Positions 3,505 through 55,499 of a stretch of DNA of 64,000 bases are shown piece after piece; positions within the stretch are counted from its first letter, which is position 1; the number at the start of each line of letters is the position of its first letter. A program made the position numbers and the translations under genes. The DNA comes from Ornithodoros turicata (Eukaryota; Arthropoda; Arachnida; Ixodida; Argasidae). Where the stretch lies: the NCBI RefSeq assembly GCF_037126465.1, contig NC_088205.1:26953482-27017481 (forward strand). Reading direction: 5' to 3'. The notes beneath the pieces were generated by a model, which had not been told where the DNA came from, did not search any database, and saw only the letters and a program-made list of their open reading frames with translations.

Positions 3505-4578
3505 TCAGGCCGGTAGTTTGCAGGAATTTGATGAAGGGTCGTAAGACGGACATCTGCTTTCGTGTGTCCCATGGTCCCAAAATGAGTCTGAGGTCAAGGG
3601 GTCGGCTGTCAATCCGCGCAAGGTCGTTTGCCGAATAATTTTAATTGTTTGCTCCCTCCTATAAGTGGCACATGCGATGATCACATGGTCCGCGGTCGCT
3701 GGCACACCACACTCCGGGCACAAGGGACTACTGGCACACCCTATCTGGTAACGGTAGTACGGCGAAAAGGCAACATTCAGCCGTAAGCGATGTTGGAGGG
3801 ACTGAATGACGCGCGGTAGAGATGTCGGTAAGCGACACGAGAATGTTGGGCCTACAATTCCCAGTATGGTACTGGCCGGGACATCCCGACGCCATTGTTC
3901 GACGGATGAGGAGGCAGCCCAGTCACGAAGAAGGGACCGTCTGTCCCCCCTTGGGAGAACAATCGGGACACACTTGCCCTGGTGGTGAGCGGCCGCTGCG
4001 GCAGCGTCGGCAACGTGGTTGCCAGAGATTCCGCAATGACCCGGAATCCATTGAAAAGCGATGGTGTGGCCGTGGGCAGTTATGGACTTCAGTAGGCGTA
4101 GAATGTTTATCACAAGTGTGGCCAGTGAGCCGCGGAGACCTGAGGTTTTCAGGCATCGAAGAGCTGACTTGGAGTCCGTACAGACTACCCATCGCCGTGG
4201 ATCGCAGGTGGCCGCATATTGTGAGAACAGCAGGATTCCGTACAGCTCGGCTGAGGTCGAAGAGGTGCGATGGGACAACCGGCAACCCCGGGTGAGCGGT
4301 ATCGAGGGTACCACAAAAGATGAGGATGACGAAGTTTTCGTTGAGGAGCCATCCGTGAAGACCGTGCAGAACCCATTATAATAAAGGGAATGCTGAGCAA
4401 TGTTTCTAAAACAGAGTGTGTGACAGTGAATGTCAAATCGAATGCTCCAAAGGTGCCGTTGCCTGCCACAGTTCATCAGGTACAGGAGATCAGGTACAAG
4501 ACGGGAGCCGGGATAATACGTAAATAGACTGATATCACCTGTCAGCTTCAAGGCAGAGCGGACGAGGAGCGCAGACAA
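3505..4578 (-). CDS. LINE ORF2 C-terminal fragment: RNase H plus CCHC zinc knuckle
   Basis: This uninterrupted 357-codon frame matches the end of an I-clade LINE polyprotein. The RNase H catalytic set is visible: VFTDGS (D76), SAELYGIL (E111), VCTDSKSAL (D135) and WIPGHCGISGNHVAD (H181, D191). RNase H in LINEs degrades the RNA strand during cDNA synthesis. It is followed by the conserved RLRLNVAF block and a CPEC...H...C knuckle (C287, C290, H298, C303). Endonuclease and reverse transcriptase are absent upstream, so this is a 5'-truncated copy even though the remaining frame is open, which suggests a fairly young insertion. It is unlikely to be expressed as a protein by itself. Confidence 0.85.
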   Translation of the reverse strand: MSALLVRSALKLTGDISLFTYYPGSRLVPDLLYLMNCGRQRHLWSIRFDIHCHTLCFRNIAQHSLYYNGFCTVFTDGSSTKTSSSSSFVVPSIPLTRGCRLSHRTSSTSAELYGILLFSQYAATCDPRRWVVCTDSKSALRCLKTSGLRGSLATLVINILRLLKSITAHGHTIAFQWIPGHCGISGNHVADAAAAAAHHQGKCVPIVLPRGDRRSLLRDWAASSSVEQWRRDVPASTILGIVGPTFSCRLPTSLPRVIQSLQHRLRLNVAFSPYYRYQIGCASSPLCPECGVPATADHVIIACATYRREQTIKIIRQTTLRGLTADPLTSDSFWDHGTHESRCPSYDPSSNSCKLPA

Positions 4579-4839
4579 TCGCTTTCGTTTCTATTATCCG
4601 TGCTCTTGAAGGTCTTTTTGCTGAGAAAGAAAATGCATCCAAAGAGCCGACCCTGCTTTGCATCTACTTGTCGTCCGTTGTCGAACACTGGAGCCACATT
4701 CACATTTAAACTCCACGATATAGGAGATCGGAGTCATGATTGGAGAATAACAATTTCTTAGCTGCTGCTTTACTATGAACAAGGACGAACAGGATCTCCG
4801 TCTGTCGGCGTCGAGCATCCTGATACGAATAAACTACGG

Positions 4840-4905
4840 ACACCTGAGAGACTTCGAGCTATGGCTTCTCCGTATTTTTTCAGTTTTCAATCAATCAATT
4901 AATCG
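4840..4905 (+). repeat. Possible LINE 3' tail
   Basis: The T-rich run followed by CAATCAATCAATTAATC resembles the tails at 25884 and 32264 but without a clear stem-loop. Weak call. Confidence 0.3.
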
Positions 4906-5130
4906 AGCTATGGCCTGTTAATGGCTCTGTTGTGCTTTGCCTGGAAACGTACTAGACGCGGGGCGCGTACATCCAACTTTCGGTCTACGCCCGCATGCAT
5001 TAGAGAATGCGTCGCCCGCAACTGATAGGCCGAAATTCGAATAATTTTAATTGTCATATATCTATCCAGCTAGCCTTGTTATTAAAACCGAATGTGGAAT
5101 AATATGAACAGGTGCAACATAACACAGTTC

Positions 5131-5313
5131 TGTAGCGGCCCGTGGGCGAGGGCGACGCCCCACAACCAACGCGCGCGCTAGCACACAAAGGCTTCATCGA
5201 CGCACTCCTGGACTGATGCCACTGATTGATAAGCTGTCCAGCACATCCGGCACCCCGGGACATTCCATCACCATCGATCAGTATTGATGTAGAGGGACAC
5301 CATCTTCTCTACA
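5131..5313 (+). repeat. LTR (5' end of an LTR retrotransposon)
   Basis: The 183-bp block starts TGTAGCGGCCCGTGG and ends CTTCTCTACA, so it has TG...CA ends. It is related to the LTR pair at 35937 and 36695 (shared GGCGGCCCGTGG-like start, GACATTCCATCA core and GTAGAGG...CTCTACA end). It is followed by TTTAATGACCCGG, the counterpart of the primer-binding site TTTGGTGACCCGA at 36111. No partner LTR follows within several kb, so only the 5' part survives. Confidence 0.7.
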
Positions 5314-8300
5314 TTTAATGACCCGGACCGGACACCACAGTCCGGGAGACACTAAGGTCTTTCACCATCCCAAACGTCACAACGACTACAGTTCATTCTG
5401 TAGCAAAAATGGCCATGCTGGGTTAGCTTGCTATGAGGTCGCCTTTTCTAGTGGCACCCGTGAACATTTCGGAGATTATGCTTAACTCCACAAATTGAAA
5501 GCAAAATTGTAATGCCTCCTTTTATTGATCTTACATTTGCGCACTTACAATAAAATGCGCTGCCGCGTGGCCTTCCACCTCAGTTGTCGCCCACAGCCAC
5601 CAACTTGATACAAGCCCCTGCTATACTCTAATGACAGATTCACCGCCATTACAAAGTAATGCTATGGGAGAATTCCGGCTCTCACCTGTGAGTACACTAC
5701 GCAGGAGCGTGAGCACAAGAAGAATATTGTATGCCGTCTACAAGACGGCTGACAAGACGGCTTCGTTTACACAAAACGAAGCGGCGTTGGTTAGTTTATC
5801 GTCACGAGAGACATACAGTGCTGTAGTGAAACCAAGGTTAGTTCAAGTTTGTTGACTACAGGTCCCGCGAGTGCTCTCGGCGCTCCAGACATTGAAAAGC
5901 CGTGAATTTGAGTGGTTAAACAGTGATGTCGTGTTTTTGAACACGGCATATCATTTTACGAAGCAATCGAGCACTCTCCTTGATTATCCTTGTTTCGAAT
6001 TTCCGGTAGATGACAATACATGTGACAATGGCGTGGGCAAGCTTTCGCTTGTCCCATCCTACAGTTGGCAATATGACAATATATGTTTGGAATTTCGAGA
6101 TCGAGAATTTCGCAACCGGGAATATCGAGGTCCTAACGTCTGCGATTTCGAACATGTGGATTCTTCACTGTGGGATATCGGCATAGCCCCCTCGAATTAA
6201 CAACCACTGCTTTAGCCAAAGTTGCATCGAAGTAGCATTGCGAAGTAGGTTAAGTTTTCTTTTGACACGACCAATTAGATAGAGTGAAGAACGACATCTT
6301 GAAGCTTCTGCTGTCCTTCCATTGTTTTGGTTATCCCTTTAATGGACCGCAAGTCTGTGTACTAGAACACCCCAGAAGACATGTTCCACATCCCTGGCAC
6401 AGAAAGAAACTCAGCCTGTATAAATAAGCGGCGCAGGCGTATATAGGTCACGTCTTCCAGTGCAAGATACAAGCCCATACGATGAATTGCGAAGGGCCCC
6501 CGTCTTCCGGAAAAAGTTCTCTCACGGGAAAAGGAAAATCTGCGTCCCTCACAAAGAACCAGTAAAGGGTCGGGACGCGTGACCGACGGCGGAAAAGGTG
6601 CGATAAGGAAGAACCCTTTTAGGGAGGGCTCCGATAAGGCATACGACGCCATGGAGCGCAGAGCAAAAAACCGAAAGTGCAACGTAGGGAAAGCGAAGAC
6701 AAAGTGGGTCCCGTCCTTTGTGCAGCATACGCTAACACTAAAGGGCACAAAAACACTTTAACGGCGCGACGTGATGTCATATAAGTGTGTACCAGCGAAT
6801 TCGCATTTACTTCCGGCGTGGAAGGTGTGTCTTGCGTTGACGGTAGCAGCAGGCATCGAGACGGACAGGATAGGGGGGAAAGAAAGGGACCATCGCAGGC
6901 CGGAAACGTGTGTATGAGACCACTACGGTAATGTTCGTCATCGCTTCACAGTCAACTTGGCAAAGTTTGTCTTCCGAAAACAGCTTACGCTTTAAATAAA
7001 CGAGTTTTAAAGATTCGCACTCCCCCTGCAGCTAAGGAAGCACCAGCGATAATAACAACACGATGATGTCAGCCAGGCACGCGAATGGAAGCGCGGCGCA
7101 GGTGATTGACTCCGAGGTCGTCTGCTTCGCGTACGAACCGCAATATACTCCGTGAAAAGTCATCGGTAAATACGCCGATTCTCGCTTACGAGTGTGAGTT
7201 CTGACGAGACCATGTTGCCTGGAACACGGTGTTACGCTCCTGGCTCTACGAACAAGTCCGACGATAACCAGAAACAATATCCCATAAGCCGATCAGAGAC
7301 TCTCCGCGACAGCGGACGCCTTCCCTCACGCTCGCCGGTCGGTTGCCATGGGCTCCCCATACAGTCGCTCTCTGATTGGGTCTGTCCGAGTGACGTTTTG
7401 CCCGATTTCCAGAGAGGGAATTCCGGAATGGTCTCTATATACGTCGTCAGCACTTGCCATGCGTCACATCAAACTGCACAGGAACAACTCCACTAATTGA
7501 CGTCGGATTTTCGGCGTTATTGTCAGTGAGGAACGCGGAGTAAAACTTCACTATAACTTCAGAATCGATCGCGACAGATGCGATAGTTCCTTTCAACGCC
7601 CGTCTTGAAAATATGGGACACACCTACTTTGCTCGCCAGCTTGATGAACTGCTGCATGAACAAAGAAAGCGGTTGATGTGGACTTCGCATAGAGTAATAA
7701 AATATCTGTAACCGCGTCGGCAGCGGTTTTCCCAGCACCCCCTCCCCCACACCCCCAGGACACCCCCAAAAATATTGCGACACCCCTCCAAATTCCCGCC
7801 AGAAAAGCCAAAAAGCCAGAAAAGCTGCAAATATGGGTGCCCCCCCCCCCTCCCGCTGCGGAACACCAATACACCCCCGAGGCGAAAATCCTGGGAATAT
7901 CCCTGCGCGTCGGTTCAATGATTTCGAACACAATGCGCGGGTGATACCTAGGAGTGACACTTCGCATACATCAACTATCGCGGCAAGTCTTGTCGGTTTA
8001 CGCGCGAAAATGAAAGTATAAATAATTCACAGTTCGAGAGGCGGGTGCAGGCAGTTCAGTGCACATCCAGTGTGGTCTGAGGAAAATAAATGCTCTTGCA
8101 CAGAGACTGTAGAGCAGTAAGAAAGACAAACAATGTAATGAAAAAAAAAAAAAAACTGGAATGACCCAGAAAGAATGTGTCACTTCGAAACGGGAGAAAT
8201 TGGTGCACGTTTTGGCAATGATGTTGTCGCTTTGAGCAATCAGACATCCTTGAGGCGGGTATAGACGATTTCAGAAATTGCATGGGTGGCCCACCAGAGA

Positions 8301-9820
8301 GCGCCGTGTTGCGAAAGTCCCGCTGCATCTTGGGATTTAGTTTTCATGAGTCAGAGAGAAGAGAAAGAGCGCAAACGGTTTCGGTTTTCTTTCTCCTTCA
8401 CCTCCCGCAACCTCGAGCAACAGGCAGCGAGCACGAATGTAAACCATTTCCCACGACACATTGCGCGATGCACGTGACATGGGCGACGGAGGGCCCCCGT
8501 GCGGAGCACAAGGGCAATATCTGAAATCGCCTATTGGAACACGAGCCGTGGAACCTGCTTATTCGAAGTCATGGCAGTCAAGCGGGAGCTCACTGACCAA
8601 ATCAGCTGAGCGCATTGTAGGCGAGCCGGGGTTCGGCCGGCCCGTGCCTCTTAGCTTATTCGTCACAAAACGAACAAAACTGAAATTCTCATCGAATACT
8701 TTCACAGCGCAAAGCGCATGCGTAGTAATGATGTAATGAGAAATGTCGTTGCAAGCTCTATTTGAAGCGTAAGAAGACGTCAGTGTGCGCAATGTCTCCC
8801 AAGTGCAGACGCATGCACGAATTATCTGCTTGGCTCGTCGAAGTATTCCAATGGGTGAAGTTCATCACAGACAGGGTGGATCACATCTGGAGCTGACATG
8901 GAGCTGATTAGATGCAGGTACTCATGCAAGACGGTTTTCTCATCCGGACGATGGTACTGGGTGAACTTTTTCCTTTCCTCCGTTCTCCTCCTCCGGCTGC
9001 GTTCACGAGGGAGGTAACCGGAATACGAGAACCTCTCCACCGCTGACAGCAGGTTTCGAAGGATAGCACTACCAAGCGAGTTCACCTGCTAGTTCAATCT
9101 CATAATTTCATACTGCGCAACAGGGAGGCGAAGAAAGTTGAAGGACATCCCTCGTGAATGCTAGACCATCATTTCCGGTATCGTTTAATCTTAAGTGAGC
9201 TGAGCTCGCCGACGAAAAAGCCTGAGTGTGGGCGACGAAAGGATGGTCTACAGACAAACAGCTGTTCTCGTACAAATAGGGGGATCTCGTATATCAAGCC
9301 CACTCTGCCGACGAATATCGATCGTCCGCGCAATAATTGGTTTCTGATGATCTATGACGCCCATTTGGAGGACTATACAGGTACGGATTTTCATGAAACG
9401 TGGAATTTCACGTCATTTGGACGAAAACGCTCTGTTAAGGCAGCAAGGAGGGCACCTCGAACATGCGAAAATGTGTAGAGCGTGTTGGTTGGTACACCGA
9501 AACATGACGAGGCAACGTATACGCTGTCCGTATGTGTCCTCTGTCCGTGTCTCCGCCGCGTTGCCTCGTCATGTTTCAACCTCGATCGTGCCTTTCTTTT
9601 TTTATACCGCGTGATATGAACATATTGCCTTCAAGAACTTTCGCGCAAAATATTTCCTCTGGGAAGCGCGATTTTCTGACAAAATTAGTGTACAAGAGTG
9701 CACGCAGTAGCAGCGATCTCTCATCTGTCGTGCTGTGACGTCACATCACATAGCGCTTTTATTGACTGCCGATAATCGTCTGCCAGAGCGAGGGAGCAAG
9801 TCGATCGATCAACTGACCAG
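5314..9820. other. Long stretch without recognised genes
   Basis: About 4.5 kb with only short, unsupported open frames. It includes a C-rich tract at 7740-7855 with a 12-C run and a poly-A run near 8139. I recognise no protein family or element boundary. Confidence 0.4.
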
Positions 9821-10065
9821 CTCCCGTGGTATTGTGGTTACGATGATGGCATTCCACGCCGAGACTGTGACCCGGGTTCGAATCCGGGTGCCGGCTGTGC
9901 TGTGTGGGTGTTTTCCCAGGATTTTCCTCAGATGCTTTATGACGAATGTCGGTACAGTTTCCTGTGAAGTCAGCCCAGGACGCACGATCACCCCTGCGGT
10001 AGTTATGACGTTGCCCACCTGAGCGTGGCAGACAGCGGCAAGCAGTTCTACCATCACCACCACCG
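9821..10065 (+). mobile_element. tRNA-derived SINE, copy 1
   Basis: The head has a pol III A-box-like segment (GTGGTATTGTGGTTACG) and a perfect B box, GGTTCGAATCC, at 9875-9885 inside a stable T-arm-like stem. The body GCTGTGCTGTGTGGGTGTTT, then a CAGGATTTTCCTCAGA segment and the GTCAGCCCAGGACGCA segment, is shared with copies at 18684, 20775 and 45970. SINEs of this layout, such as Ruka, are known from ticks. It lies just outside the left end of the MULE. Confidence 0.8.
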
Positions 10066-10181
10066 CTTGACTGCTCTGCGTCAGATATGGGACAGGCGAC
10101 GCCAAATACGACCGCAAAAAAGAAAAGAAGGAAGACACGATCTTCACTAGAAGACGACGACGACGTGGCCTCGCAGAGCCG

Positions 10182-10190
10182 AGGTTTTTT
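10182..10190. repeat. MULE target-site duplication, left copy
   Basis: AGGTTTTTT directly before the left terminus, identical to 18020-18028. Confidence 0.75.
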
Positions 10191-10229
10191 GGGAGGCCGT
10201 TTTCGGCACCGATTCCGGGTACAGAGAGG
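10191..10229 (+). repeat. MULE left terminal inverted repeat
   Basis: 39 bp starting GGGAGGCCG. It matches the reverse complement of 17981-18019 except at positions 6, 13 and 27. Beyond it both sides become GAG-rich but no longer align cleanly. Confidence 0.8.
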
Positions 10230-10649
10230 GTGAGGAGGCAGAGAAGAGAGCGGCGAGGGAAACGATGCTGCCCTTTCTCTCCCAGGGCATCGCCAGCATC
10301 GCGCCATCGCGCCTCGCCTAGTGAGCTTGCTGTTTGCGGCGGCTGCATGCTGGCTATGCGCCGGCCCGCGAATGCTGTCACGAATGATTCCTATCACCAG
10401 TACAACGTTCGTATTTTCAAGTTGTTAAGAGACAATTAGTGGATCTAAATGCCTCCAGAAACGAATACACAAAACAAAATTGCATTTTGTGTGCAACATG
10501 GTAATCGAGTAAGGAATTTAGCGTACACGCTGGATGTGCATCGCTGTCATAATCATAAACAATGAGAAAGAGAACGGTCAACACCACTATTAATGGGAGG
10601 CGTGACAATTCACTTCATATTGATGCCCGAGTAACCAAATTGCATTATA

Positions 10650-10866
10650 CAGGGCGTTTGCTCTAACGTGTCCAGAAATTATATATAAAGCGCGGGCGAT
10701 AAAAGAAAAGCAAGTGGTACTTTTCTGCTATTTGAGTAAGAAACAGGCACTGCTACATTATAGTAGCACCTGTTTCTTAGTCAAGTAGCTGAAAAGTAGT
10801 GCTCCTTTCTCTTTTATCGCTGACTTTAAATTAAATTTCTGGACACGTTAGAGCAAACACCCGCTG
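10650..10866. mobile_element. 217-bp foldback mariner-type MITE inside the MULE
   Basis: The ends are CAGGGCGTTTGCTCTAACGT and, from the other side, CAGCGGGTGTTTGCTCTAAC. Both are flanked by TA. Almost the whole element is one hairpin: GTGTCCAGAAAT, GCGATAAAAG and AAGAAACAGG recur inverted in the right half. It lies between the transposase stop codon and the left MULE end. Confidence 0.85.
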
Positions 10867-11137
10867 TATATGGAACCGAAAATGTAACGAAGTTGATAAC
10901 CATCCTTAACATCTACATCCCTTTAATTAATTAATATGTACAGCTGTTCTTATCACATTCACCTTTATTCATTCTAAAACATAGTTTCCAGCACAGTAAG
11001 ATATTTAATACATGTATAAATGGAAAAGTAGCAAAAGACGTTGGAAAGTAGTAGAATTAATGGTATGCAGCAGTGCTTTATCCAGAATATCGAGCATGGA
11101 GGACGTTGAACGAAATTATGTGGAGGGAGGGGGTTAT

Positions 11138-11390
11138 AACTGAACCTCTGTATGTAATAAGGGGATAAGTAAAAAAATGCCAACCGAGAAAAGGGGCCTG
11201 ATCTGATTGTCCGTCCCATTAACATACATGCATTTCCCGTTTCTTACCCTCCTGTAGCGGGCCAATAAATTGCAATACGATCCTAAATTTTCTTTGACAG
11301 GTACATACTGGCATGTAGATGTCATTGCAGCAAAAATAGTAAAAAGGGGATAAGTCGACTTATCCCCTTATTGCATACACAGGTTCAATT
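11138..11390. repeat. Inverted repeat with embedded 26-bp perfect palindrome
   Basis: The left arm (11138-11170) and right arm (11358-11390) match at about 30 of 33 positions and contain AATAAGGGGATAAGT. The right arm overlaps a perfect palindrome at 11344-11369 centred on GTCGAC. It sits in the 3' region of the MULE transposase gene. It may be a small MITE; no target duplication was found. Confidence 0.55.
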
Positions 11391-11612
11391 GTTGTCATGG
11401 TTCCCACAAAATTTGGGCACAAAAATTCATGGGTACTTCAAGATCCTTTTAAGGCACAGCTGTAGCTCTGCCATGCAAAACTGGGGAAAGATAGGGGACG
11501 TCTCGAAACAGTTGGGGAGTGAAGGGCGGTCTGGATAAATCACTGCAGCAGAATACACAACATTACTGAAAGCCAGTTGCTGACAACGTTCATTAGGAAA
11601 TTTGAAATTGCA

Positions 11613-13751
11613 TCAAATTACTGGATCAGGGACATGGTAGGTCAATCTCATTTTGGTTGCCTTTGATCCAGTATGGCCCCGTGACGTCCAGTGCTGTCGT
11701 CCCCGCGCATATCTTTTTAGTAAGTTTGTTCTAAAAGATGTAGGCCCAGTTTTCTTATTTTGTTTTCCCTGATTGGAGCAGCCCTTTGTGGGAGAACCTC
11801 TTACAGTCAGACCATTAGATGTGGACATGCCATCCTGCAGTTCTGCTTGACATTCTGCGAGCCGATTCAGTACATTTTTCATCTTGCTAATATCATGGCA
11901 GTAATAAACAGAACTTTTACAGTGCTCTAGTGCATGTATGACGCTGTTTCTGACTCGTCTTTCTTCTCTTCGCTGGACCTTCTGTAGGTCTTGTAGTGGT
12001 GCTGAGTTTTCACTCGTAGTCGGAGCACATGTAATATCATCATGATGTAAAATATCCACTTCCATGTCACTACGTGTGTCAACGTTCCGATCTAACGTTA
12101 GAGCTGGACTGTTCCTGTATTTCTCGGGTAGATGGTCAAATCCCCATGAGTCAAACAATAGAAATATGGCACAAAAATGCTTGCAAGGAAGCTGTGTGGT
12201 AATGAAATCCTTGCAGGTGCAGGAAGGTGCATTGAAGTTCACTGTATGGTGGAGCCCATCTTGAGACAATGACCTCACCTTAAATATCCCTTGGCCATCG
12301 TCATTATCACCCAGAATGTCCTCCCTCATAAAGTCACCAGCAGCAGTTATGCGTGTCATGATATGCTTTACGACCTTTGGTGGCCTATTGTGAAGATATG
12401 ATGGAAGGTCAGGACGACACAGCCTGTACTCCGTTGAAAGCTTCATGTTTCGTTCTAAAAAGATTCGTTTTCTCTCTGGGAGAAACTGGCCAACGAGAGT
12501 TCCAATTAACCCGGCAAGGCTTTTTCGCCCACTGTGCTGCTTAATATAGTGCTCCTTGAGCAATTTATTTTGTGATTCAACTCCATTGTTGGTAGCGATA
12601 GGGAGTTGAAGCCTAAACAGCTTCACCCACATCTTCTCTACTGAGAACCAGACTTCATTCAGGTAATGTTGTAACTTGGAGTTTGATGACCAGACTTCTG
12701 ATGACCACAAGGCTTCTTTTGCATGCTTATATTCCTCTTCAGTGGTTGCTCTAGCAATTTTTCTCAGGAGTGTTAGTGCTTCTTCCTGATTTTTCACGCC
12801 ATTCTCTTTCCTTCTGAGCCACCTATCCCATGCTCTTTCCCGATGTACATCACAGATGGCTATTTCACTGTCTGGAAAAATTGCAGAAATTGCATTTATC
12901 TCTGCTATTGAGTAGTCAACCATCCAGAACATAGGACTGAACGAAGGACACCACTGTTTGAAAATCCTCAAAGCTTCAGAAATGCATTCAGCTGTTTCGA
13001 ACTGTGTTATAAATATTCCAACGTTCATATAGCCAACAGGGGTTTCTACTGCCAGAAGGAACAAGGGCAGGGCATAATCAGTGGTTTTGTGTGTTGCATC
13101 TAGGCACACAACAGTATCTGCATATTTTTGCATGAGAGACTTCATGAAGGCAGACTGATAACAGAAAAGTAGCTTTTCGGTACACTCCTTTGACACAAGA
13201 GACAAAATGTCATCACTACCAGAAGCACATGAAAGATCAGGGCTGTTCTGTTCGATGTGCTCACTCGATCGGTACGGGCGAAAAAAAAAGTGTGATGTTG
13301 ATTCTTGTTCTTGTAATGTCATTATAAGAGCTGCAGCGTTATCCTGGTCCACCTCGCTGAAGCGGTCTTTTCTCAGCACAGAACGAATGCGGTTACCAAT
13401 GTCTTCCTTCGTAGGATAGAATGCTCTGCACGCATCTTCAGGCTTTTCTTTGCCAGCAAACATGATATCATCTACGAAGTATACAAGGCACTGCTGCACT
13501 TCCTTCACAGATGTTATGCCCTTATGCACTAGCCTTTCAATTTCTTCTGTCACTTTACTGTTGACTGGCTGTGCATAGTAGATAGCTTCACCAAACTTGT
13601 GGTTTGTGTGTCCATCCTTTGCAGAAATGCTGATATATATTCTCTGTTCAACCAGCAGGGAACTGTCACTTTCTCTGATGGCATCACGAAGCTTAGCAAG
13701 TGCTTTGCCTTTTGCGTCTTTTCTTCCTCTTGTACTGAGGGTGGTGCTCAC
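11613..13751 (-). CDS. MULE transposase exon 4: DDE core and SWIM zinc finger
   Basis: This 712-codon frame is open throughout. It starts with GTG straight after TTTTTAG, and TAG would be an in-frame stop, so it begins at a splice acceptor and not at a start codon. Within the exon, residues 37-51 (RIYISISAKDGHTNH) match the segment that precedes the nuclease in this family. The catalytic residues are D218 in CLDATHKTTDYALPL, D279 in FWMVDYSIAEINAISA and E392 in NNGVESQNKLLKEHY. The MULE CxxH block is CDVHRERAWDRWL (300-312). The SWIM finger is CTCKDF...LPCKH (C511, C513, C523, H525). All catalytic and metal-binding positions are present, so the enzyme may still work. The C-terminal 180 residues are basic and of low similarity to anything I know. 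Confidence 0.9.
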   Translation of the reverse strand: MSTTLSTRGRKDAKGKALAKLRDAIRESDSSLLVEQRIYISISAKDGHTNHKFGEAIYYAQPVNSKVTEEIERLVHKGITSVKEVQQCLVYFVDDIMFAGKEKPEDACRAFYPTKEDIGNRIRSVLRKDRFSEVDQDNAAALIMTLQEQESTSHFFFRPYRSSEHIEQNSPDLSCASGSDDILSLVSKECTEKLLFCYQSAFMKSLMQKYADTVVCLDATHKTTDYALPLFLLAVETPVGYMNVGIFITQFETAECISEALRIFKQWCPSFSPMFWMVDYSIAEINAISAIFPDSEIAICDVHRERAWDRWLRRKENGVKNQEEALTLLRKIARATTEEEYKHAKEALWSSEVWSSNSKLQHYLNEVWFSVEKMWVKLFRLQLPIATNNGVESQNKLLKEHYIKQHSGRKSLAGLIGTLVGQFLPERKRIFLERNMKLSTEYRLCRPDLPSYLHNRPPKVVKHIMTRITAAGDFMREDILGDNDDGQGIFKVRSLSQDGLHHTVNFNAPSCTCKDFITTQLPCKHFCAIFLLFDSWGFDHLPEKYRNSPALTLDRNVDTRSDMEVDILHHDDITCAPTTSENSAPLQDLQKVQRREERRVRNSVIHALEHCKSSVYYCHDISKMKNVLNRLAECQAELQDGMSTSNGLTVRGSPTKGCSNQGKQNKKTGPTSFRTNLLKRYARGRQHWTSRGHTGSKATKMRLTYHVPDPVI

Positions 13752-16700
13752 CTAAAAAAGAGTTGCAAGTGTAGGATAGTAAATATATTTTGTGATACTC
13801 TGTTTGTGTGGACTGCTGTTAATTCATTAATTCAAAGGCACTCAACACTGACAGACAGAACAAGCAAGAAGCAAGACAGAACAGACAGAACACATGGCGC
13901 AGATTTTTTGTTTATATACAGGGTGGGTGCTATAAAAGGTCAGTCACATTTTCGCACGTGGCGCAATACCTACTTGACGGACAGACTTCTGCTATCACAG
14001 AACACATAATTTGTGTCAGAAAAGCCTTCAAGAAAATCGTGGTTACCAGGAACTGCATAACAAAGTAAATACCAGCCGCCGGCTCTAAGGCCAAACGCAC
14101 CGCCTCGAAAATATTGTCGCCACCGGCGTGCCAGCTCGGAAGATCTCTCATTGGCTGCTCATTGGTCTAAAAAACTGGCGTCAGTTTTCTTCGCACTGAT
14201 TGGGCAAGAGTCATTTGACTGAGGAGCGAGCATCCGAACGTGCGAACCGCTCAACGGAAGCAGTCGAACAGAGGAGAAAGAAGAACGACAGAGGAGAAAT
14301 CGCATCTGTCCGGCCACGCGTGTTCTCTCAGACTGCAACTGTTGTGCACGCAGACGCTACGGGGTAGTTTGAGGGTTTTGAATGCTTTAGATTTAGATTG
14401 TGGCGAACTGCTAATGTGAGAACGGAATGGCACATCCACCTCATCATCACAACAGCGTGAAGACGAACATGACATGGAATCCCTGCACCTCCAAAGGACG
14501 CAGAAATCGTCAGAGAGGAAGTCTGCACTCTTTCCGACGTACTGCAGGTGAACGGTAAGACAAGTTTGATTACTTTTTTGTGACCGAAGGAAGTAATGCA
14601 GGTTTATCACGTTAAGTGTATTACGTACAACATTTATGAGTCACTCGGTACGTTAGCGGCGTTTCATTGTGCAGTGCATTGCCGTAACTTGTACGTTTCT
14701 GATATGCCGTCAATCAAATTATGTGTGGTTATGCTAGTTGCCCCTCATGCGCGTCGCAGCCGTTCATTCGCTGTGATCTACGAACATTCGTGACAAATGC
14801 CTTGGTGTTCAAATACGAAATCAATATAGATTGCCTATCATGGCAGTGATTTTCGTGCAGTGTTACGGATCATCAATATATTTTTTGTTTTGTTTCAGTT
14901 CTCCCGCAGCCATCGGCAACGACGAAGCACATAGCTCAGCATTGGCTTTTGAACGGCCCTTGGATGTCGAAGCACCTAAAGCTCCAGTGAAGCCTGTTAC
15001 AAGACGTAAAAAGGTATGTACTGTTGCTTTTTTGAGGCAGTTCCCGAGGACAAATAAAGTTGATTTGTCATACACCATCGCTTTTTGATTGTCTGCTTCG
15101 GGACAGCATGATCATTGCTCTACAGCAAAACAGCAAGCGCCGAAGACAAACGGACGAGTCTGGGGGGGTAGGGGGGACAAGAGGAGAGACGAAAAACCTG
15201 AGGAGAGAAGGGGAAGGAGGTCGGTCTGCACATGCGCACTGGGCCCCAGCTTTTTTCCCGCGCTGCAGCTCGGGGACGCTGTGAGTGGCTCCTCGAGATC
15301 ACGTGGTTTGGGCGCCCACCATTTTCCCTGGATCATTGCGTAAACGGCAGCTTCCGGCGGATGTAAATACTGTGAGACAGACGATTGCCATCGTGATCAT
15401 CATATCCGGCACGCTCGCTCGCTCCCGTTTCTGGAAGTTCCAGGATCAGCCCGAATAAACAGTCTCTCCTTGCCAAACCTGTTTCCTTGCAACAATACGA
15501 CCACGCAAACTTTCGTGTTCATGCATTTCATATGCGCAATACAGATGTAAACACGGCGGTCTGCCCCTAGTTGAGTGCAGCTTCCGCCTAGGGGAGCTAG
15601 CGGCATCAAAAGCGAAAACAAATTCGTGTCGGCTAGCGCCCCTAGGCGGATGCTATACACAACAATTTGCAGATCGCCGTGTTCACATCGGTATAGCGCA
15701 TAGGAAATGCATGATGACGAAAGTTTGCGTGGTCGTATTTACTTTGTTATGCTGTGTCTGGTAACCACGATATTTTTTACGGAGGCTTTTCTGACACAAA
15801 TTATGCAACTCTGTGGTAGCGGAACTATGTCCGTCAAGTAGTATGTCCGAAGATACGAATGACCTTTTATAGCACCCACCCTGTACATTTGTAGTAGGGC
15901 ACACAATAGGGGCATGCAAAACAGTGGCCATGCAAAGTTTAACTGCATTCATAGACACTGAAAAGGAAAGGAATAACGGGAAGGAAAGGCCTAGAAGCAT
16001 TTCATTTGTGAAGTGTTTCTAGGCTGACTTGTCAATGCTGAACTTGTGTATAAAATAAGACCAGCGGTGTAGCCCCTTACATACACAGAGGTCAGGCAGG
16101 CTGTCAGGAATTTCGTGTTGTGACGTTATGAGGCAAGTATTGTCATTTTCACTCGCATGCAACACACGATTTTTAGCATATCCTCCAAGAATTTCAATAT
16201 GAATGTCAGCTGGTAAACTTCCGGAGGGGGCCTGGCCCCCCTGGGCACAATGAGCGCCTATGCCTTCAAATGTTTCGATGGAAAGATTGCTAACACACAA
16301 TGAAGTGGAATGTACAGTAGGATTGCCGTGGGTAAATTACCGTGTACTCTGGGTATGCTTGTATCTTCTTTATATGCATATAAGCAGTGCACCCCTTCTT
16401 CTTAGTTGTTTGCAGTTTCATCTTCTTCTTTTTTGGTAGTTCTGCCCAGTCGGATGTACAGCTGGTCGAAGCCTGAAACCAGTTATGGCACTAAATGAGA
16501 AAACTTGACCTTTTTTTTTTCTTTTTTGAATAAACAATGACAGCATGTGATGTTGGAAGGGTATGTATAAAAATTACTTGAAAAAGATTTTGCTTAATAG
16601 AGTTATTTAATATATTTGGTGTGACCACCAGTAATCAAGTTTACCTAGATATGTAATTTAATTATCTACTGATAGCATGCATACCCCACTACTCTCTTCC

Positions 16701-17831
16701 ATGTATGACTAATCAGCTTGCTGATACGCGCTGTAACAATGTGTGGTATACCCTTGGAAATGAGACACTGGGCTAGAACACTTTAGATGCAAGAGGGATG
16801 CTGCAGGCATAGAACAAAATTAGAACATTGGTTCTTAGCTGCATTCGTACTTAATTGTTATCACTAAACTGTGTAATAATGTACTATAGTAATAAGGTTT
16901 TAGGTTCTGGAAAATATAAAACTGTTGCTGAGACAAACTAGACAAACTGAGATAAAACTGAGACAAAAAGCTCTCCTACATATTGCAGTGTTGCTGTACA
17001 GTGAACAAACCAGAGGTGTCCCTGTTTACCATAGGTCTCTTATATTGTATTGTATCGTCGGAAGGCTTTTGTGCAGTCACATCAAGCCATCATGAATGGC
17101 TCATGAACAACCTGTTGTATGGTCACTATATGACCATACAACAAGTTGTTGTTCAGAACTGATTGAAATAATATTTACCATTTCTGTTTGGACATGGTGT
17201 CTGTCCTTGCCAAAGATACAGCCCTTCGTTATGCAAGCAGTAACTTCGAACGGCATGTCTAATGCAACAGGCACTCCACCTTTCCCAGTGCTGAACAGAA
17301 GTCTGCCTAGGATGCCGCATATAGTACAAATGAAAGTTAATTTTCGCAAGGACGCGTGAGAGAAAAAAAAAGCTTACACTTGTTCGCTGTAATATATACA
17401 GGGTGGGGGCAGAAAAAGTAGCCCCAGAACAATCTGGCTCTACTTTATCTGCACCCACCCTGTACATCTACATACAGCACAACATACAGCTGCACACAAA
17501 CACATATTTTCGCCCAGCATCTCCCCCCTCTTTGTAAGAATCTGCTATTTGGACTAATGTCAGGAGTAATATACGAAGACATAACAATCAATGTACTGTA
17601 ATAATGATTGTATATTGTAATAATGGTATAAAGCTCACCATAATCAGTGCTCCTGTCGGGACGCGCGTACCGCGCTTTCTCAGTTTGAAAAGATACTCCT
17701 ATGCTGCAGAGATCATTTTCCAACTTGCTGAGGCAGTCGTCACTCAGCAGGTATCCACACCAGCGTGACCCCTCCTTCTTAAGGCCCTTTAAATGCCGCT
17801 TAAGCAATATCTCTTCATCAATCCCCGACAT
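11613..17831 (-). CDS. MULE transposase gene, four exons (predicted 863 aa)
   Basis: Proposed exons on the minus strand: 17831-17639, 17306-17179, 16472-16341 and 13751-11613. They total 2592 nt, i.e. 864 codons including the stop, with no internal stop. Introns begin GTGAGC, GTAAAT and GTAATT and end CCTAG, TTTCAG and TTTTTAG. Phases are 1, 0 and 0, and the frames fit. The N-terminal exons carry cysteine- and lysine-rich segments (CITKGCIFGKDRHH; KKKGCTAYMHIKKIQAYPEY) like the DNA-binding part of MULE/SWIM proteins. The last exon holds the DDE nuclease and SWIM finger. The product would cut and paste the element by binding its inverted repeats in the nucleus. ATG at 17831 lies 188 bp inside the right terminus, leaving room for a promoter. 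A domesticated host gene of the ZSWIM type is the alternative, but the flanking inverted repeats and duplication favour a transposon. Splicing is my prediction and is not confirmed by transcripts. Confidence 0.75.
14474..15013 (+). other. Candidate two-exon coding fragment captured in a transposon
   Basis: Proposed exon A runs from ATG 14474 to 14547 (donor GCAG|GTGAAC). Exon B spans 14899-15013, between TTTTGTTTCAG and AAAAAG|GTATGT, both near-consensus splice sites. The phases agree (2 then 1), giving 63 codons starting MESLHLQRTQKSSERKSALF and ending EAPKAPVKPVTRRKK. Three ATTGG (inverted CCAAT) boxes lie upstream at 14150-14205 and an AATAAA at 15053. I recognise no protein family. It could be a host-gene fragment picked up by the 13919-15883 element, or chance. 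The strand is opposite to the transposase. Confidence 0.3.
15494..15739. repeat. Inverted repeat with 108-bp arms nested in 13919-15883
   Basis: Arms 15494-15601 and 15632-15739, about 85 percent identical, begin AATACGACCACGCAAACTTT and meet around a 30-bp spacer. This is probably a separate foldback MITE; no target duplication seen. A GAATAAACAGTCTC polyadenylation-like motif lies 40 bp upstream. Confidence 0.7.
16341..16472 (-). CDS. MULE transposase exon 3 (predicted)
   Basis: 132 nt, 44 codons, between an acceptor GGTTTCAG and a donor ACG|GTAATT, phase 0 on both sides. It encodes SDWAELPKKKKMKLQTTKK followed by GCTAYMHIKKIQAYPEYT, the segment typical of CARF/SWIM-type proteins upstream of the nuclease. 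It was too short to be an obvious open frame by itself. Confidence 0.7.
17106..17150. repeat. 20-bp-arm hairpin in MULE intron 2
   Basis: AACAACCTGTTGTATGGTCA, a 5-nt loop, then its inverted copy with one mismatch. It lies 28 nt inside the proposed donor of exon 2. Confidence 0.6.
17179..17306 (-). CDS. MULE transposase exon 2 (predicted)
   Basis: 128 nt between acceptor CCTAG and donor ATG|GTAAAT, phase 1 in and 0 out. It encodes VPVALDMPFEVTACITKGCI then FGKDRHHVQTEM, a Cys-containing N-terminal segment. The neighbouring AG four bases downstream would break the frame with exon 1. Confidence 0.6.
17399..17462. mobile_element. 64-bp minimal mariner-type hairpin in MULE intron 1
   Basis: Flanked by TA on both sides. 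The ends CAGGGTGGGGGCAGAAAAAG and, reversed, CAGGGTGGGTGCAGATAAAG pair to form one hairpin. It is the smallest TA-flanked copy in the window and shares its CAGGGTGGG terminus with 13919-15883. Confidence 0.75.
17639..17831 (-). CDS. MULE transposase exon 1 (predicted, start codon)
   Basis: 193 nt from ATG at 17831 to a strong donor TATG|GTGAGC. It encodes 64 residues starting MSGIDEEILLKRHLKGLKKE, acidic then basic, with no recognised domain. The start lies 188 bp inside the right terminus. Phase 1 joins exon 2. Confidence 0.65.
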
Positions 17832-17980
17832 GCCAAAGCAGCGAAACGCAACCGAGAGTACACGTACACGTGCGCAAACCGCAACTCTCGTTTCTCGTTG
17901 TCATGCCAACAACAACAAAAAAAAAGACAGCGTACATGTTCTCTCTCACACCTCCCTCTCTGCTGCCCTCGCATACTCCT

Positions 17981-18019
17981 CCTCTCTGTACCTGGAATCG
18001 GTGCCGGAAACGGTCTCCC
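17981..18019 (-). repeat. MULE right terminal inverted repeat
   Basis: On the minus strand begins GGGAGACCGTTTCCGG; 36/39 match to the left terminus. It probably overlaps the promoter of the transposase gene. Confidence 0.8.
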
Positions 18020-18028
18020 AGGTTTTTT
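18020..18028. repeat. MULE target-site duplication, right copy
   Basis: AGGTTTTTT, identical to 10182-10190. Confidence 0.75.
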
Positions 18029-18683
18029 AGCCTACCATTCCTACCATAGCCGAGGTATGGCCGAGGGAAGCAGGTTTTCTAACACGCGCGTTTGAAAGCT
18101 CTCTTGAGCACTCGTACTTTTTGCGCGGATTTGTATCTCAGGGCTTGTAATTTCTGCTCTTCCTGACATATTTTTTTAGTCATCCCATGTTCCTTTAAAG
18201 CAAATATCACAAGTCGGTTATTAGAAACCAGTCTGCACTGCAATTAGAGCGAACACAACGTTTAAGCTTCACCATGGCCTCCCATAGTAAAGCTTACACT
18301 TAGTGTCCGTCCTATAATTGTAGTGACCAATGATCTCGAGGAGGGCAGTTGACGAAAAGTCAGCGAGTGACAGCAGCGGCAATCAGAGGCATGGGTTCGA
18401 TTACCGTCACAGCAGCGACATAAGTTGCGCTTACATGAAGACGGCAGAAGGCGACATACGGCTTGCATGTAAACGGTTGCAGGACGACTTAAATAAGCCG
18501 TCGATTGAACGCCGCTCAATCGACAACTTTGGGTAGTTTATGCGACAGCTGTCGACTGCAATTTGCCATGAAAACCGGTAAAGACGACTTAGCAAGTCTT
18601 ATCCGCTACGTCACTTCCTTCCCGCCAGTCATCTCCCCTCTCGCAAGAAGCAACATGGCGGCGGAAAAGCATCCACTCGTTGA

Positions 18684-18795
18684 TGGTAGCCGAGGTCGCG
18701 CTGAAGACTGGGAGGTGGTGGGTTCAAATCCTGCCACCAGCTGTGCTGTCTGAGGTTTTCCTCGGGTTTTCCTGCATATTTTCCAGACGAACGCG
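18684..18795 (+). mobile_element. tRNA-derived SINE, copy 2 (truncated)
   Basis: B box GGTTCAAATCC at 18721-18731 is followed by the shared body CTGTGCTGTCTGAGGTTTTC. The alignment to other copies ends after TTTTCCAGACGAA, so the 3' half is missing. Confidence 0.7.
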
Positions 18796-18799
18796 CCCG

Positions 18800-20015
18800 T
18801 GTTTTGAACGAGGCATCGATATTTTGACGAGAGCGCAATGCCGGTGTAATGGTCACGGGATAAATAGAGCCCTTGTCACTTACATCTAGAATACATAGTA
18901 CGAAATGACATGGCGAGAAAATTTCTTCCATTGCCTCTCGAACGGAGGTATTCATTTGGCTATTCGCTCGTGAGCTTGTGCGGCCGGCGTGTTCGTCTTC
19001 TTCCAGCTAGGAGACAAATATTTTTTTAAAGCACTGCGTCTGCACAGCGTTACCCCTTTGTTGTATCTACAGTGTACGACATACCACTCTACATTTGGTG
19101 TTTTTACAAGGAAGACACAATGCACTTTCTGGCCAGACGCTATTCGTTCCGCTTTCAGCTTCCAGTACAACGGTAACATCTTTGGCCCAGAGCCGGGTGA
19201 GGATGCGTTGTGCGTGTGAAGCAAACGCCTCTGAAGGCCCACGTGTTTCTTTTGTATGCTAGTACACTCTACCTATGCGAGTCTCGTCTGGTCTCCGTCG
19301 CTTTTAATAACTTCAACTGCAGATTGTGTTCCGAGGCGGAGACCACTGAGCACGCCATTCTCTCGTGCCGAGGTACAATATTTTTCTTGTATATGTTTCA
19401 ACATTGTTTTGAAAGAGAACATCTTCCTGCGTCACCGCGCTATCAGGTATCTCAGGTAGGGTCCCTCGTTTGCGAATTTTTTGAATTTTGCAAATCAGGT
19501 GAGCATCGGTTCACGTAGCGGTCACAGCAGCGTCAACGGCAGACCGTATCTGCCATTGAGACCAGGAAGTGAGCTCCCGTGGGACACCGTTGTTTTACTC
19601 GGTCTCCGTTCGTTGTGTTGGATCATGGCACTCCTTTAGGAGATACGTGATTTGCCCATTTGCGGTTTTTGCATCTAGATTTCTCCCATCTCGAGCAGGC
19701 CGTACATCACACTCCATTTGGTTCACTGTCCTTAAGCTTGCAATTGCAAACTCAACTGATTACCGAATTCCAGGTCCAGTTTGCTCAAAATCAAGTCATG
19801 CGACAACTCAGCTACGAGCAAGCGTCGGCAATATGCATTATGTTGCTCTTTGAATTACAAGTTATTGCTGATGTTGCCGTGTATTACTACTAGTCAGTGC
19901 GCATCGTTAGTGGTGCATATTCTGAGCGCTGGGAGCCTACGCATGGTATGGTCGCGTGTATTATGTTCATTTGTTCATAGCATTATGATGTTGTAAAACA
20001 GCAGACAGGCAGTTT
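18800..20015. other. No recognisable feature
   Basis: Spacer of 1.2 kb with only short unsupported frames and no repeat boundary that I could define. Confidence 0.4.
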
Positions 20016-27301: not shown

Positions 27302-27302
<1 letters not shown>

Positions 27303-27304
<2 letters not shown>

Positions 27305-27523
27305 CTGGAAACGCCTCGGAATGGTGCTGTGGCATAATGCTTTTTAGAAATATTTTAGTTTGATAGTGTTGGCTGATACGCGCACATATACATACGATAT
27401 ATATAAACTAATACAGAGAGAGATACGCACACTATAGACTGTGTACGTATCAGCTAACACTGTCAAACTAAAATATTTCTAAAAAGCATGATGCCACAGC
27501 ACCATTCCGATGCGTTTCCAGCG
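27303..27523. repeat. Inverted repeat with 78-bp arms
   Basis: Arms 27303-27380 and 27446-27523 match at 74 of 78 positions around a 65-bp spacer. They begin CGCTGGAAACGCCTCGG and run to GGCTGATACG. A foldback MITE is likely; no target duplication could be read because the left side borders the AT repeat. Confidence 0.85.
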
Positions 27524-28099
27524 ACCGTAAAGACGAGGGGCAGCCGCAAGTTCTCTGGATAGTTTCCAATGCAGACGACAGCTGTAAACACCTGAAATTG
27601 TTGTCTGCTCTGTCTGCAGAAAACCGTCCTGAATAGTAACAGTCACCTCGAAACAGCCGGCACATCAGAGTCAAAACACTGTTCTGTCACCTGTCTTTTG
27701 CAGTCGTTTGAAAAATGTTCCCCGAAAGAAGAAACGTGAGATAATATATAGCTAGCAACGGGAGACGCTGGGGTGCTCTGTCGTCAGCCGAAGCCAGAGC
27801 CTCGAAAATGAAAGACGGCACGAAAGCCACATGGTTCGTTCGTCGCAAAATAATAATAATAAACGATATCGTCCTTCCATTTCTCTCGCTACACTTAGCG
27901 CATACTGGCCACACTGGAAGGGCCATAGTCTTCGCATGACGTCATGGGGAAAGGTCCTTCCGGGTGAGCGAGGACTCAACTGAGCGCGCAGAGAGGAGAA
28001 TGGAAAACGTCGCCAACCAACATCGCGAAAGAGAAACGAGTGCACACACACACAAAAAGGATGGAAACTGGAAATGTTCCAGGCCCACTATTATTATTG

Positions 28100-34733: not shown

Positions 34734-34984
34734 TACACTCTTTAAAAAAAGGGTGTACTTTAACTCATTTTCCTTGCCACATATATCACTCGCTTTTAGA
34801 GAGTACAATTACTCTCAAAAAGAACTCTCCTCACTCCCTTCAGGGAGTGGGGTGAGAGTGGGTGAGGAGTAGGGGGTTAAAGGGACCCTTTAACCACCTA
34901 CTGGAGAGTAATTGTATACTCCAAAGGGAGTGATATATGTGGGAAGGAAAATGAGTTAAAGTACACCCTTTTTTTAAGAGTGTA
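34734..34984. mobile_element. 251-bp foldback MITE
   Basis: The ends are TACACTCTTTAAAAAAAGGG on the left and TACACTCTTAAAAAAAGGG reversed from the right. Pairing continues through GTGTACTTTAACTCATTTTC, CACATATATCACTC and ACAATTACTCTC to the centre, so the whole element is one hairpin. The target duplication is unclear. Confidence 0.85.
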
Positions 34985-54945: not shown

Positions 54946-55374
54946 AGGTTTAAGCACATTTTCTCTCCCTTTCTCTTTTTTTTTTCTGATGCATAGCTTT
55001 CTTCATTATGTACTACGTGAATAACGAAGCCCTTAAACTGAAATAACCTCTCAAATATACGTTTGTGCATAATCAACTCTATTATGTCGTGCGAATGTCT
55101 TTTAGTGTTACGAATGAGGAGGCTCGAAATATGCGAAATATGCATCCTGCTGGCCACCGCGATGTTATATACTTTGTTAGCTACGAAGCGACAATGATAT
55201 TGAGCTCAGTGAATCTTCCAGCGAAGACCAAAAGCAAAATAGTCTATACTCCGAGACAACTCAAGGGCTGCAGTCGTACAGGCGTATCTCTGCCAGACGT
55301 GTATGTATAGTCCGCATACTGAGAGTGGGGCGTACGAGAAGGTGGCGGACGCCATGCAGACGGGGAAGTCGAAA

Positions 55375-55495
55375 CGAAAACACTGGTCGGAGACGACCTA
55401 CATGAAATATTCGCATTAACAGAACATGTGAATCAACTTCACATGTTCTGTTAATGCGAATATTTCATGTAGGTCGTCTCCGACGAGTGTTTTCG
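55375..55495. repeat. Near-perfect palindrome, 58-bp arms, 5-nt loop
   Basis: Arms 55375-55432 and 55438-55495 match at 57 of 58 positions; the loop is TCAAC. The arms begin CGAAAACACTGGTCGGAGAC and end at ACATGTGAA. The junction and single mismatch suggest a very recent origin. Confidence 0.95.
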
Positions 55496-55499
55496 TAAC

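Follow-up and report, generated by a model that had tools for sequence, protein, structure and literature searches.

Boundaries of the element

We analyzed a 64,000-nt window of the genome of the soft tick Ornithodoros turicata. At positions 10191-18019 lies a Mutator-like element (MULE) with a total length of 7,829 bp, which has inverted ends, an exact target-site duplication (TSD), and one transposase gene in four exons on the minus strand. We regard it as very probable that this is a full-length MULE of O. turicata and that its one transposase gene is structurally intact. The MULE identity follows from the ends, the 9-bp duplication, the exon structure, the catalytic residues, the predicted fold, and the presence of other copies with coinciding ends.

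A preliminary description of this DNA had proposed inverted termini matching at 36 of 39 positions, with a 9-bp duplication on both sides, and both are confirmed here. The left terminal inverted repeat (TIR) starts with GGGAGGCCGTTTTCGG and occupies 10191-10229 on the plus strand, and the right TIR occupies 17981-18019 on the minus strand. Their 36/39 match compares with a best inverted 39-nt match of 26/39 in 100 resamplings of positions 9000-19200 under a first-order Markov model, where the arms had to lie at least 2 kb apart and an exact 11-base seed was required in real and shuffled scans alike. Directly outside the TIRs are two identical copies of the TSD, AGGTTTTTT, at 10182-10190 and 18020-18028; given the local base composition, the chance of a 9/9 match is ∼4e-6. 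MULEs are recognized by TSDs of 8 to 11 bp and by TIRs at both ends that are common to family members. Here, the TSD is exact over 9 bp, and the TIRs are matched across 29 aligned ends of the family. A search for a further TIR copy elsewhere in the window found none.

Transposase gene and its annotation

The transposase gene has 2592 coding bases, corresponding to 863 codons plus a stop. All three introns are GT-AG, and the frame stays open across the junctions 17639/17306, 17179/16472, and 16341/13751. Exon 1 (17639-17831, minus strand, with the ATG start at 17831) encodes 64 residues that match 19 of the 61 gathered proteins at E ≤ 0.01, the top match being P0034 from Ixodes hexagonus (44%, E 9e-14). 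It is separated by intron 1 (17307-17638, 332 bp) from exon 2 (17179-17306, minus strand), which is 60% identical to P0042 from Ixodes pacificus (E 5e-14). When exons 1 and 2 are joined, the P0034 match extends over residues 1-104 (48%, E 7e-29) and so spans the junction. Intron 2 (16473-17178, 706 bp) is followed by exon 3 (16341-16472, minus strand), which is phase 0 on both sides, is 100% identical to the NCBI model P0001, and has many further protein matches, including other tick proteins. Overall, proteins from other tick genera match exons 1 to 3 over the junctions. Intron 3 (13752-16340, 2589 bp) has its GT and AG retained in three other genomic copies described below (L010, L012, and L015). 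Exon 4 (11613-13751, minus strand) is a 712-aa open frame that encodes the end of a CaRF-type domain, an RNase H-like DDE domain, a SWIM-type motif, the C-terminus, and the stop, as identified by Pfam profiles and by an AF2 model with its fold match. The 863-codon gene with splice phases fitting through three introns, as given in the preliminary description, is thus supported by the open frame, the GT-AG boundaries, and tick homology for exons 1 to 3.

The NCBI gene model LOC135395156 (protein P0001) is 100% identical to our translation across exon 3 and the greater part of exon 4, and its initial methionine fits the final codon of exon 2 joined to exon 3, which is the junction proposed here. 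The model exits exon 4 early and finishes in a reverse transcriptase at window positions 621-220 on the minus strand, where it is again 100% identical. We consider the four-exon model better because the part of exon 4 that P0001 omits holds the motif SPTKGC, which is found in 10 of 12 aligned relatives. P0001 joins MULE transposase sequence (11613-16472, minus strand) to a LINE-type reverse transcriptase ∼11 kb downstream; judging from the sequence, LOC135395156 is likely an annotation chimera of transposase and LINE, or else a read-through transcript. Between the two lies a 361-aa open frame at 3508-4590 (minus strand) with an RNase H domain (PF00075, 1.7e-10), which may belong to the same kind of LINE as the reverse transcriptase at 220-669.

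Domains, active site, and predicted fold

Residues 82-277 of the 863-aa protein match PF15299, a Pfam family named for ALS2CR8 (E 2.9e-31; 109.6 bits versus a cut-off of 28.9). This family was also the only Pfam match in the first 229 residues taken alone (68.2 bits). The catalytic half matches the ZSWIM1-3 RNaseH domain PF21056 at residues 346-448 (6e-16) and the MULE domain PF10551 at residues 365-454 (1.4e-8), both above cut-off. The predicted catalytic triad consists of D369, D430, and E543, spaced by 60 and 112 residues, and is unchanged in 12/12 aligned proteins. Further along is the SWIM-type motif C662-x-C664-x9-C674-x-H676 (C-x-C-x9-C-x-H, residues 662-676). MULE transposases often have a zinc-binding motif of this SWIM form (CxCxnCxH). 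The DDE residues described earlier are in place, as is the motif of the SWIM finger.

A sequence search of the PDB gave three matches, all at E 0.26 or worse. By structure, the predicted model has in its catalytic half an RNase H fold that is closest to the ISCth4 transposase (PDB 6xg8, 6xgx, and 6xgw), albeit at 11-16% identity and with an alignment limited to the catalytic region. We take ISCth4 to be a bacterial element of the IS256 family. IS256 family elements transpose via a circular intermediate (copy-out/paste-in), and since this is the closest solved fold, the tick element might use such a route instead of cut-and-paste. We consider this unlikely, as likeness of fold shows no route, and Muta1, an animal MULE, excises and reinserts in yeast (PMC5225508).

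Related copies in the genome

We searched the O. turicata genome using the left 510 bp of the element and found at least 49 matches, a lower bound because 40 of 1039 first-pass candidates were scored. Twenty-six loci (L009-L034) were fetched around these matches, and 8 of them have both TIRs. The preliminary description had called for further copies with 9-bp duplications, and these were found: exact 9-bp TSDs flank L010 (CTCGCGATG), L012 (CATCGCGAG), L014 (GGTTAGGAC), and L018 (GCTCTGAGC). L010 and L012 lie ∼34 kb apart on C1 (∼230.30 and 230.34 Mb); because they are in opposite orientation and their TSDs are reverse complements, we treat them as one insertion that was duplicated. The four loci are thus three separate insertions, with TSD sequences that differ from that of the window copy, and no sequence is common to the TSDs. 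Among the other two-ended loci, L025 and L030 have TSDs with one mismatch (over 9 bp and 8 bp, respectively), and L028 and L033 have none. L014 (1314 bp) and L018 (1610 bp) have internal deletions and keep both ends, i.e., they are non-autonomous.

The alignments of L010 and L012 are gapped and reach base 1 of the element on one side and base 7829 on the other, which are the ends of the window element. Copies with ends that do not coincide with 10191 and 18019 had been named beforehand as the result that would refute the element; we looked for them and saw none in the 26 fetched loci, many of which are partial and keep a single end only. Across 29 aligned ends, the 39 TIR positions are ∼91% conserved on average, a figure inflated by the selection of ends at ≥26/39 matches and including one L030 end that is one base off register. 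The 15 flanking positions are 33-48% conserved (mean ∼37%; 27 ends). The 29 ends comprise the two from the window and 27 that come from 20 of the fetched loci, with L011, L020-L024, and one weak L033 end omitted. The 15-base flanks are common to L013 and L019 and to L025 and L034, so these pairs are probably duplicates.

The recurrence of the ends bears on whether the arrangement in the window could be due to chance or an assembly artefact. The TSD is T-rich, and the window holds a single locus, as such an explanation would have it. However, no shuffled sequence exceeded 26/39, and the same ends are found again on different contigs, where they are flanked by exact TSDs of other sequence. This refutes chance or artefact, which we now consider negligibly probable.

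Nested elements and other repeats

The span of 10191-18019 given in the preliminary description holds for the exact ends, but a separate transposable element nested in intron 3 accounts for ∼2 kb of these 7,829 bp, and without it the MULE is ∼5.9 kb. The nested element lies at ∼13919-15883, with TIR CAGGGTGGGTGCTATAAAAGG in inverted arms at 13914-13957 and 15845-15888, and has TA on both sides. Its ends start with CAGGGTGGGTGC, and a similar end is found in a 64-bp hairpin element in intron 1 (17399-17462), which also has TA on either side. Because L010 and L015 hold shorter forms of the nested element at the identical position, it probably inserted before these copies separated. An inner part of the nested element (MULE positions 3883-5173) has a 93% match in locus L027, and a 246-nt foldback lies within the nested element at window positions 15494-15739. 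Elsewhere in the window, there are foldback repeats of 120-800 nt at 1196-1992, 27302-27524, 34734-34984, and 55374-55496, which are perhaps MITE-like.

Intactness and possible activity

Some coding similarity is present in 16 of 27 loci (L009-L035), and only L010/L012, L011, and L015 have much of the gene. L010 and L012 have common stop codons as well as indels, and L011 is fragmented, with stops. In L015, exon 4 is 99% identical to that of the window copy, with 22 differences and zero gaps. This locus (C6:38.79 Mb) is a mosaic, with element positions 1-338 at 80% followed by sequence at 97-98%, which suggests recombination or gene conversion among family members. Splice dinucleotides are retained at the inspected sites of L010, L012, and L015, bar one L012 donor. 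In the window copy, there are zero disabling changes in 863 codons, and every splice dinucleotide is intact. The dN/dS of the window copy versus three other copies is 0.59, 0.51, and 0.36 (Fisher p 0.005, 0.00015, and 0.03), which provides modest evidence for past selection on the transposase frame.

Several observations weigh against a full-length element with an intact gene. The Pfam SWIM profile (residues 654-682) scores 18.9 bits, slightly below its cut-off of 19.6, and the TIRs (39-50 nt) are short by MULE standards. None of the 26 fetched loci holds a second copy that is both complete and nearly identical, and the closest relative, L015, has an in-frame stop and ends within intron 2, with exons 1 and 2 gone and not found in ∼8 kb past the break. 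Codon-position bias is weak (49/49/55 in L010), and the divergence of exons is close to that of introns. In all, the earlier claim of an intact autonomous MULE stands for structural intactness, and the window copy is possibly also autonomous. Further intact copies may exist in the genome beyond the sampled loci.

The window copy could instead be a recently silenced relic, in which the anatomy is correct, expression or mobility has been lost, and the frame is still open for lack of time. We give this just under an even chance; it overlaps with our reading of a structurally intact MULE, which claims no activity. Consistent with silencing, the three other sampled insertions with much of the gene (L010/L012, L011, and L015) are all broken, introns 1 and 3 contain nested elements, and the NCBI gene model continues into a LINE reverse transcriptase. 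However, the 863 codons are undamaged, the splice dinucleotides are intact, and both ends are near the family consensus.

If the structurally intact MULE does function, the spliced 863-aa protein would use its CaRF-type domain at the N-terminus to bind the conserved ends, possibly with C94, C135, H199, and H202 as zinc ligands. The RNase H-like active site of D369, D430, and E543 would then cut and join DNA. If the joins were staggered by 9 bp, at targets of no fixed sequence, repair by the host would then produce the 9-bp duplication. This transposase, or a similar enzyme, could also act on the short copies that have internal deletions and retain both ends. What we infer for this element is the binding of zinc and of the ends, the cut-and-paste chemistry, and any present activity.

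Comparison with known MULEs

The nearest known counterparts are animal MULEs such as the Phantom/Muta elements (Phantom is group 20 in PMC6446971), represented by Muta1 and Muta5 of Aedes aegypti. Like the tick element, they have a DDE transposase with the MULE Pfam domain, TSDs of similar size (8-9 bp in the mosquito families and 9 bp here), and non-autonomous derivatives whose ends are those of the longer elements. Their genes are also spliced, with two exons in Muta1 and three in Muta5 (PMC5225508), and four in the tick element. In contrast, Phantom/Muta transposases are 504-554 aa rather than 863 aa, the TIRs are >100 in 12 of 14 mosquito families rather than 39-50 nt, and Muta1 has a FLYWCH-type N-terminus rather than a CaRF-type one.

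Intact MULEs had been described as little known in chelicerates, but this is tempered by a 2026 arthropod survey (PMC13359780). Its table lists complete MULEs from three species of Ixodida, one mite of the Mesostigmata, and a harvestman, and its text also mentions spiders. Like the element described here, the Ixodida MULEs of the survey come from ticks, carry TIRs, and have a transposase with an open frame. Their total length and their transposases are smaller, though, and their TIRs are longer (2734-4214 bp, 339-500 aa, and 87-144 bp in Table 1 of the survey). The O. turicata element falls outside all of these ranges at 7829 bp (∼5.9 kb once the nested element is subtracted), 863 aa, and TIRs of 39-50 nt. 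No description of it was found among the papers listed in the literature searches, as judged by titles and the starts of abstracts; it is a new member of the known MULE superfamily.

Relatives and the N-terminal domain

Homologs of the transposase are found in Haemaphysalis, Rhipicephalus, Ixodes, Dermacentor, and Hyalomma, and Amblyomma has the N-terminal domain alone. The >10 entries of Rhipicephalus microplus in the database derive from more than one assembly and need not all be distinct loci, and O. turicata itself has a second family, P0005 (42%). We built a midpoint-rooted tree of 39 catalytic regions, comprising the window protein and 38 of the 61 database relatives (two picks were dropped as short). 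In this tree, 22 rows that are tick or unnamed group together with 100/100 support; outside the group are stick insect, Hydra, urchin, aphid, and three other unnamed rows. The combination of PF15299 and MULE domains is also present in the stick insect Bacillus rossius, Hydra, Strongylocentrotus, and Lytechinus. Relatives were also sought in viral contigs, and none were confirmed. Some relatives have further domains: in P0058 (Lytechinus), the transposase is fused to a PHD finger and to a protease of the Ulp1 type, and P0054 (Hydra) has an extra PHD finger.

P0042 (I. pacificus) and P0044 (Amblyomma americanum) have the CaRF-type domain and no detected transposase domain, and are either domesticated genes or truncated models. 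It is tempting to ask whether the window gene, too, is a MULE-derived host gene with a cellular function, whose ends survived by chance, as it is long and multi-exon, has an N-terminal domain family named after a host transcription factor, and has relatives such as P0042 and P0044 that lack a detected catalytic part. However, its triad is complete, and there are many divergent copies in the same genome. Moreover, selection on a host protein would not maintain TIRs and an exact TSD, and with both preserved, we reject domestication as very improbable.

The N-terminal domain has a candidate metal site. Among 31 aligned relatives, many with incomplete N-termini, the C94 column has C in 14 and another residue in 1, and the C135 column has C in 21 and Y in 1; the H199 column has H in 30, and the H202 column has H in 29 and Y in 1, with gaps in the rest. 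These columns were located via P0005, whose model folds most of the N-terminal region confidently, and the window residues were assigned by motif. On this basis, C94, C135, H199, and H202 form a putative WRKY-GCM1-like zinc site. WRKY, GCM, and FLYWCH folds were absent from the 50 PDB matches listed in a whole-chain search, which are mostly RNase H, and this absence excludes none of these folds.

How might a tick transposase and CaRF (calcium-response factor) be connected? We take CaRF and ALS2CR8 to be one gene, and we know of no transposase part in CaRF. The link rests on the PF15299 family profile, which matches residues 82-277 of the transposase; CaRF itself was not among the proteins returned by our protein searches. 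In a 2010 paper, the CaRF DNA-binding domain was reported to lack homology to any known family, with one CaRF-like gene per species and none in fly or worm (PMC2877716). A sole gene of its kind per species differs from a multicopy tick transposon and speaks against a domain common to both, though that count was based on similarity searches. In the literature searched, we found no link between ALS2CR8 and transposons, the name occurring only in tables on other matters, though it may be published elsewhere; the main text of a 2023 survey of transposon-derived factors contains neither "ALS2CR8" nor "calcium-responsive." From sequence similarity, common ancestry of the CaRF DNA-binding domain and the MULE transposase N-terminal domain, with descent in either direction, is a tentative proposal that we place somewhat below even odds.

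Implications

At the level of annotation, the precise MULE gene model indicates that NCBI LOC135395156 mixes a transposase and a LINE, and the L010/L012 inverted duplication could give a date for that duplication or expose an assembly artefact. For the biology of the family, O. turicata offers in one genome a precisely bounded, open-frame soft-tick MULE, a graded series of relatives, and non-autonomous derivatives, which makes the element a candidate for activity tests. If the CaRF link holds, it would show where a transcription factor could have come from that had been described as having a DNA-binding domain without known relatives, and the intact tick copy would be a member in which the ancestral DNA-binding role could be tested.
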